From Aminiphilus circumscriptus DSM 16581 (lineage in GTDB: Bacteria > Synergistota > Synergistia > Synergistales > Aminiphilaceae): a stretch of DNA of 64,000 nucleotides. This document shows, one piece after another, positions 28,963 to 29,280 of the stretch. The translations under genes were made by a program, and so were the position numbers. The notes beneath the pieces were generated by a model. It had not been told where the DNA came from. It ran no database searches and saw nothing but the letters and a program-made list of their open reading frames with translations. The stretch's first letter is position 1. Each line of letters starts with the position of its first letter. Where the stretch lies: positions 62,001-126,000 of the forward strand of contig NZ_JAFY01000005.1 of assembly GCF_000526375.1 (NCBI RefSeq), given 5' to 3'.

Positions 28963-29280
28963 TCAGAGAGAGCAGGCTCCTCCCGCTCTGGCAATCCGGG
29001 CTGTCTCCACGAGGAGCATGGTGTTCCAGAGAAACCCCTTCAGATCGACCCGCACCACATCGTCATGAAAGGTCATTTCCTCGGGAACGTACAGACGGAC
29101 ATTCCCGTCCTGGAGTACCGCATTTCCCTCTTCCGCGTCGGGCTTGCCGTTCTCGACGAGAGCGGCATACTGCGCAGCTCAACCACCACCGATACGTCGC
29201 ACAATCACATGGGCGACGCCGCCCCATTTCTCGATTTTCTCCCGCGCCTTTTCCGTGAGTTCCAACGTGAGTTTGTTCAT
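28963..29280 (-). CDS. HesB/IscA-like selenoprotein with in-frame UGA (Sec34)
   Basis: 105 residues if the UGA at 29181-29179 is read as selenocysteine. Before it: MNKLTLELTEKAREKIEKW...VIVRRIGGG (33 residues). After it the frame runs 71 codons to a TGA at 28965-28963 with natural codon use and protein-like composition. The pattern 'LTEKA..KI', a beta strand, then GGG-Sec where IscA/HesB proteins have GGC, fits HesB-like selenoproteins. A SECIS-like hairpin follows the UGA at 29145-29167. GGGAG lies 9 nt before the ATG, and a TTGGCA-17-TATAAT promoter is just upstream. Standard calling stops at residue 33 or misses it. Family assignment is tentative; Sec decoding is well supported by structure. 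Confidence 0.78.
29145..29167 (-). promoter_or_regulatory. SECIS-like hairpin in the HesB-like selenoprotein gene
   Basis: On the minus strand TGCCG-C-TCTC-GTC-GAGA-A-CGGCA forms a 5+4 bp stem with one mismatch and an apical GUC loop. The loop begins 21 nt after the UGA, within the spacing usual for bacterial SelB-binding elements. Confidence 0.7.

Follow-up and report, generated by a model that had tools for sequence, protein, structure and literature searches.

A predicted NF041239-family selenoprotein gene with an in-frame UGA codon in Aminiphilus circumscriptus and its probable remote relationship to HesB/IscA proteins

The minus strand of a 64,000-nucleotide stretch of the Aminiphilus circumscriptus DSM 16581 genome (the whole of which is hereafter referred to as the window) carries at positions 28963-29280 what is very probably a genuine selenoprotein gene, in which the UGA at codon 34 is read as selenocysteine (Sec) by means of SelB, tRNA-Sec and a downstream hairpin, and whose product belongs to the NCBIfam family NF041239. 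The product is also assigned to the HesB/IscA superfamily, as a distant member that carries Sec at the site of the first cluster-ligand cysteine. The frame is coding on both sides of the UGA and is conserved, the decoding machinery is encoded in the genome and the protein falls into a curated family. A well-supported selenoprotein is thereby added to a genome in which a standard gene caller stops at residue 33 and leaves a stub of that length. An earlier note on this DNA had described the gene as hidden from ordinary calling, which is correct for the standard caller and incorrect in so far as an NCBI model for the family exists. The features discussed below are collected in Table 1.

Table 1. 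Features of the selenoprotein locus in the window
Feature	Position	Strand	Basis
Candidate terminator: 12-bp perfect inverted repeat GAAAGGGGGCGC ATGC GCGCCCCCTTTC, 4-nt spacer	28883..28910	.	Read from sequence
Selenoprotein CDS, 105 aa, Sec34, NCBIfam NF041239 (CC/Se motif family)	28963..29280	-	Translation, family match, homologues
SECIS-type hairpin (bacterial) with GUC apical loop, 29157-29155	29145..29167	-	Fold, covarying pair, invariant CTC at Leu41, published bSECIS limits
In-frame UGA read as Sec, codon 34	29179..29181	-	Aligned codon TGA in 38/39 distinct homologues, the exception being a tandem paralogue with TGT
Sigma-70-like promoter TTGGCA-17-TATAAT	29306..29334	-	11/12 consensus positions; consensus match only
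RluA-type RNA pseudouridine synthase (PF00849), conserved upstream neighbour	29307..30263	-	
SelW-like (Rdx) selenoprotein CDS, 77 aa, Sec = residue 11 in CTSU	30336..30569	-	Family match; L090 homologue
Candidate SECIS hairpin of SelW-like gene, apical loop GUU	30502..30521	-	Fold
HD-domain protein, next upstream gene in the conserved order HD - rluA - selenoprotein	30584..31636	-	

Reading frame and family assignment

Translated with TGA as Sec, the frame consists of 33 codons, the TGA, 71 further codons and a terminator which is itself TGA (28965-28963), and yields the protein MNKLTLELTEKAREKIEKWGGVAHVIVRRIGGGU-AAQYAALVENGKPDAEEGNAVLQDGNVRLYVPEEMTFHDDVVRVDLKGFLWNTMLLVETARIARAGGACSL, in which Gly-Gly-Gly directly precedes Sec34; both the frame and the three glycines agree with the earlier reading. 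An ORF interrupted by TGA is by itself weak evidence for a selenoprotein, as 132 TGA codons in the window are preceded by 30 or more open codons with a start and followed by 70 or more open ones. Since the frame is unremarkable in this respect, the case depends wholly on comparative evidence.

Over its whole length the protein matches NF041239 (Moor_selen_rel, CC/Se motif family (seleno)protein) at 41.3 bits, the curated cut-off being 40, and all 27 aligned members from the Synergistota match at an E-value of 0.01 or better; in genome scans with this model some members fall under the curated cut-off. The family has been described as a predicted selenoprotein of Moorella thermoacetica with the motif CxxU (2026 review, PMC13188914). 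The window protein has GGGU at this place and the Synergistota members GxGU, the Gly three residues before Sec being invariant among the 27 aligned sequences. As the window protein nevertheless scores over the cut-off, the curated model appears not to require CxxU.

Relationship to the HesB/IscA superfamily

The resemblance to HesB/IscA proposed in the earlier note stands at the superfamily level. The Pfam model Fe-S_biosyn (PF01521) matches the window protein at an E-value of 0.022 and 15.4 bits, below its gathering cut-off of 26.3; in one family member the E-value reaches 2.3e-5. When the family was aligned by hhalign with a profile built from Escherichia coli IscA, SufA and ErpA and six other sequences, the match extended over 96 columns with a probability of 88%, a P-value of 3.3e-6 and a score of 37, compared with a best score of 16.5 in 100 column-shuffled controls. 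The alignment places Sec34 on Cys35 of IscA and Cys103 in the CGC region. A distant full-length homology to HesB/IscA, in which Sec34 corresponds to the first of the cluster cysteines, is thus supported by the profiles but remote, and it provides the NF041239 family with a structural hint as to its ancestry.

The protein might alternatively be an NF041239 selenoprotein whose likeness to HesB/IscA is convergent, two beta-rich proteins having arrived at a GGC-like loop without common descent. The Pfam score below the cut-off agrees with this, as does a poor AlphaFold model (built from two sequences only, pLDDT 67.6) for which Foldseek returned only immunoglobulin-like noise and no fold match; a sequence search of the PDB with the family profile gave no match. 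Convergence would, however, leave unexplained a profile match that is full-length, co-linear and well above the shuffled controls, the coincidence of Sec with the ligand Cys and of the C-terminal Cys with CGC, and the member that matches Fe-S_biosyn at 2e-5. We therefore regard it as unlikely, while according it some weight, and retain remote homology as the preferred reading.

Decoding of the UGA codon

The window is part of a 99.9% complete assembly of 3.22 Mb in 7 contigs, which encodes tRNA-Sec (selC, 79 bits), selB (358 bits), selA (568 bits) and selD (325 bits), with selA (573608-574957) adjoining selB (575011-576900) on contig C7. As selD itself contains one in-frame TGA, the source genome employs Sec in a selenoprotein that is already known. 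The earlier note had named two grounds for abandoning the selenoprotein reading, of which the first, a genome devoid of selB or selC, is contradicted by the presence of all four genes. Among the TGA-bearing genomes, a selA match is present in all that are at least 90% complete, that of G050 being a fragment which scores under the cut-off, and the three without a selA match (G002, G039 and G045) are all incomplete genomes. At G033:C5:111900-113247 the selA match is split into two pieces in different open frames, which may represent a frameshift or an assembly error.

A hairpin begins 11 nt past the UGA (5' arm UGCCG-C-UCUC, loop GUC, 3' arm GAGA-A-CGGCA); folding confirms the GUC-looped structure that had been noticed earlier at this distance and adds one C.A mismatch within its 9-bp stem. 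Published limits for bacterial SECIS (bSECIS) elements are a loop of 3-9 nt with G in its first two positions, a UGA-to-loop distance of 16-37 nt and a minimum free energy of -7.5 kcal/mol or lower (PMC13188914), and the window hairpin, with its loop GUC, 21 nt and -11.8 kcal/mol, lies within them. Its stability is ordinary for its composition, 61 of 200 shuffled sequences folding equally well, and its support accordingly comes from the comparative data. Leu41, which lies in the 5' arm, is encoded by CTC in all 38 Sec genes and by CTG in the Cys copy of genome G140, CTC making up 22% of the Leu codons in the rest of these genes. The loop begins with GU in each of the 30 distinct aligned hairpins, and the stem pair 21-31, which joins the third base of codon 40 (synonymous in Ala codons) to the first base of codon 44, occurs as U-A in 15 and as C-G in 12 and is unpaired in 3. 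In this register 83% of the cells are paired, whereas a shift of the 3' arm by 1-3 columns leaves no more than 52% paired. Such covariation counts are only supportive because they are inflated by shared ancestry. The hairpins of the SelW-like and SelD genes of the same genome are of like design, with 3-nt loops (GUU and GGC); a search of the region against Rfam gave no meaningful family match.

Insertion of Trp or another residue at the UGA, through stop reassignment or near-cognate readthrough, would likewise result in a TGA decoded in frame. Yet the full Sec machinery is encoded, the selenoprotein gene itself terminates in TGA, a paralogue carries Cys at the site, and the CTC of the hairpin is invariant in the TGA genes and lost in the Cys copy. 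Decoding other than as Sec is thus considered very improbable, and Sec remains the preferred reading of codon 34.

Conservation of the UGA codon and selection on the frame

A genome search detected homologues in 42 of 61 relatives, and almost all of the matched segments contain a single TGA; when 188 genomes of the phylum were scanned with NF041239, 48 were found. The codon opposite position 34 is TGA in 38 and TGT in one of the 39 distinct Synergistota sequences that were mapped, so that UGA stands where homologues carry Sec or Cys, as in a bacterial selenoprotein gene. The second ground for abandoning the reading, a want of homologues with Sec or Cys at position 34, is likewise removed by dozens of homologues with TGA and a tandem paralogue with Cys. 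The nearest named relative, from the Synergistaceae MAG UBA5560, is 96% identical; no relative was found in the plasmid collection searched. The TGT occurs in genome G140, where a Cys (TGT) and a Sec (TGA) copy lie in tandem at L051:1023-1319 (-) and L051:1474-1767 (-), and in the tree the TGT copy groups with its TGA neighbours, as expected for a duplication followed by a change from Sec to Cys.

Between the window gene and that of its congener, dN is 0.013 and dS 0.25 before the TGA, and 0.013 and 0.11, respectively, after it; other close pairs likewise have dN well under dS on both sides, and in distant pairs dS is saturated. A pseudogene or a sequencing error, in which an ordinary gene with Cys (TGC/TGT) at this codon would recently have acquired a nonsense mutation, looks the same in a single genome, as a lone TGA in an otherwise open frame. 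This codon is TGA, however, in dozens of genomes from many species of the phylum, and the sequence after it is under purifying selection; the explanation is therefore scarcely credible and was rejected. A chance frame, in which a short 33-codon ORF runs into unrelated open sequence, can appeal to the 132 comparable frames and was dismissed as having a negligible probability, since homology extends to both sides of the TGA, with the 71 residues after it aligning with homologues and 27 of 27 members matching the curated family.

Genomic context

The HD-domain gene, the rluA-like gene and the selenoprotein gene are consecutive in 13 of the 18 regions fetched across the phylum; in one region the rluA-like gene alone adjoins the selenoprotein gene, and the remaining four hold extra copies of the family. 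Three or four NF041239 copies, most of them with TGA, are present in G012 (L086-L089), G021, G058 and G010 (L084, L085), and the extra copies examined are located away from the HD - rluA locus. The near-consensus promoter mentioned in the earlier note was recovered as a match to the consensus only; it overlaps the 3' end of the rluA-like gene, and read-through from that gene and transcription of the selenoprotein gene from its own promoter are both plausible. The inverted repeat lies between the selenoprotein gene and a convergent MCP-domain gene and, as a candidate terminator, is probably shared by the two.

A second selenoprotein candidate had been noticed 1.1 kb away, between the HD and rluA-like genes, and it proved to be a genuine member of the Rdx/SelW family: it matches PF10262 at 79.4 bits (cut-off 22.6; E-value 2e-22) and possesses CxxU, its UGA lying at 30539-30537 (codon 11). 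The same placement was observed in one other fetched region (L090), in which the homologue at 2287-2517 also has a TGA. Judged by its sequence, this neighbour is an ordinary member of a known family.

Partner cysteine and probable function

Among 37 complete Sec proteins, a tail Cys is absent from all six in which Cys directly follows Sec (UC proteins) and present in 29 of the other 31, often as GGC, CxxC or CxxCxC. The UC proteins come from two lineages (families f6 and f7), and the pattern therefore represents about two lineages only, a Fisher p-value overstating the evidence. It suggests that Sec may need one nearby thiol, placed either in the tail or beside Sec, with which it would form a selenenylsulfide or jointly bind a metal, and it furnishes a testable rule for the family, namely a partner Cys in the tail or adjoining Sec.

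According to the proposed mechanism, the ribosome reads the UGA as Sec, using SelB, tRNA-Sec and the downstream hairpin, and the product is a 105-residue NF041239 protein, remotely of the HesB/IscA superfamily, in which Sec replaces the first cluster-ligand cysteine. Sec34 would pair with the C-terminal Cys (Cys103 in the window protein) and, in the two lineages without a tail Cys, Sec would pair with the Cys immediately after it. The Sec/Cys site on a HesB-type scaffold is likely to be a selenol-thiol redox site or a binding site for a soft metal or Fe-S cluster.

No protein over the Pfam cut-off of PF01521 was detected in 61 Synergistota genomes by a search that does find matches in 9 control genomes, and the sole weak match across the 61 is a member of the NF041239 family itself. 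The lack of a recognised A-type Fe-S carrier over that cut-off makes the function of the family worth testing. A more far-reaching proposal, which we offer as a doubtful one, is that the NF041239 selenoproteins could be the Synergistota equivalents of A-type carriers, a Sec-HesB scaffold bearing Fe-S or another soft metal where IscA, SufA or ErpA are not recognisable, with Sec34 and the interchangeable Cys acting as ligands or as a selenenylsulfide switch.

Comparison with known systems

The SelW-like ORF is a clear member of Rdx (PF10262, TIGR02174) with CxxU, whereas the NF041239 protein is unrelated to it in sequence, the two being merely neighbours. The published HesB-like selenoproteins (TIGR01911, HesB_rel_seleno) are likewise small HesB-related proteins with a single Sec in anaerobes, but have the motif UxGP (Zhang et al. 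2006, PMC1794560), while in the present proteins U is followed by A, G, S or C, mostly A or S. At an E-value threshold of 0.001 this model matched none of the 61 Synergistota genomes and did match in control genomes; membership of this family was thus rejected. The correct family name is NF041239 and not TIGR01911.

With IscA, SufA and ErpA (PF01521) the family shares a remote full-length profile similarity, in which Sec34 corresponds to Cys35 and the C-terminal Cys region to the CGC motif. It differs from them in that CGC is cut to one Cys (window protein), replaced by CxxCxC-like tails or absent, in that the window protein lies below the Pfam cut-off, and at several otherwise conserved HesB positions. 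The agreement with NF041239 consists of a whole-length match over the cut-off and of Sec or Cys at one site. The Synergistota members depart from the CxxU of the review in having GxGU, without a Cys three residues before Sec, their likely partner Cys either belonging to the C-terminal tail or following Sec directly. To what was known of this family, the present analysis adds a remote homology to HesB/IscA in which Sec falls on the ligand position, a pattern in the placing of the partner Cys, and a gene order that is conserved.
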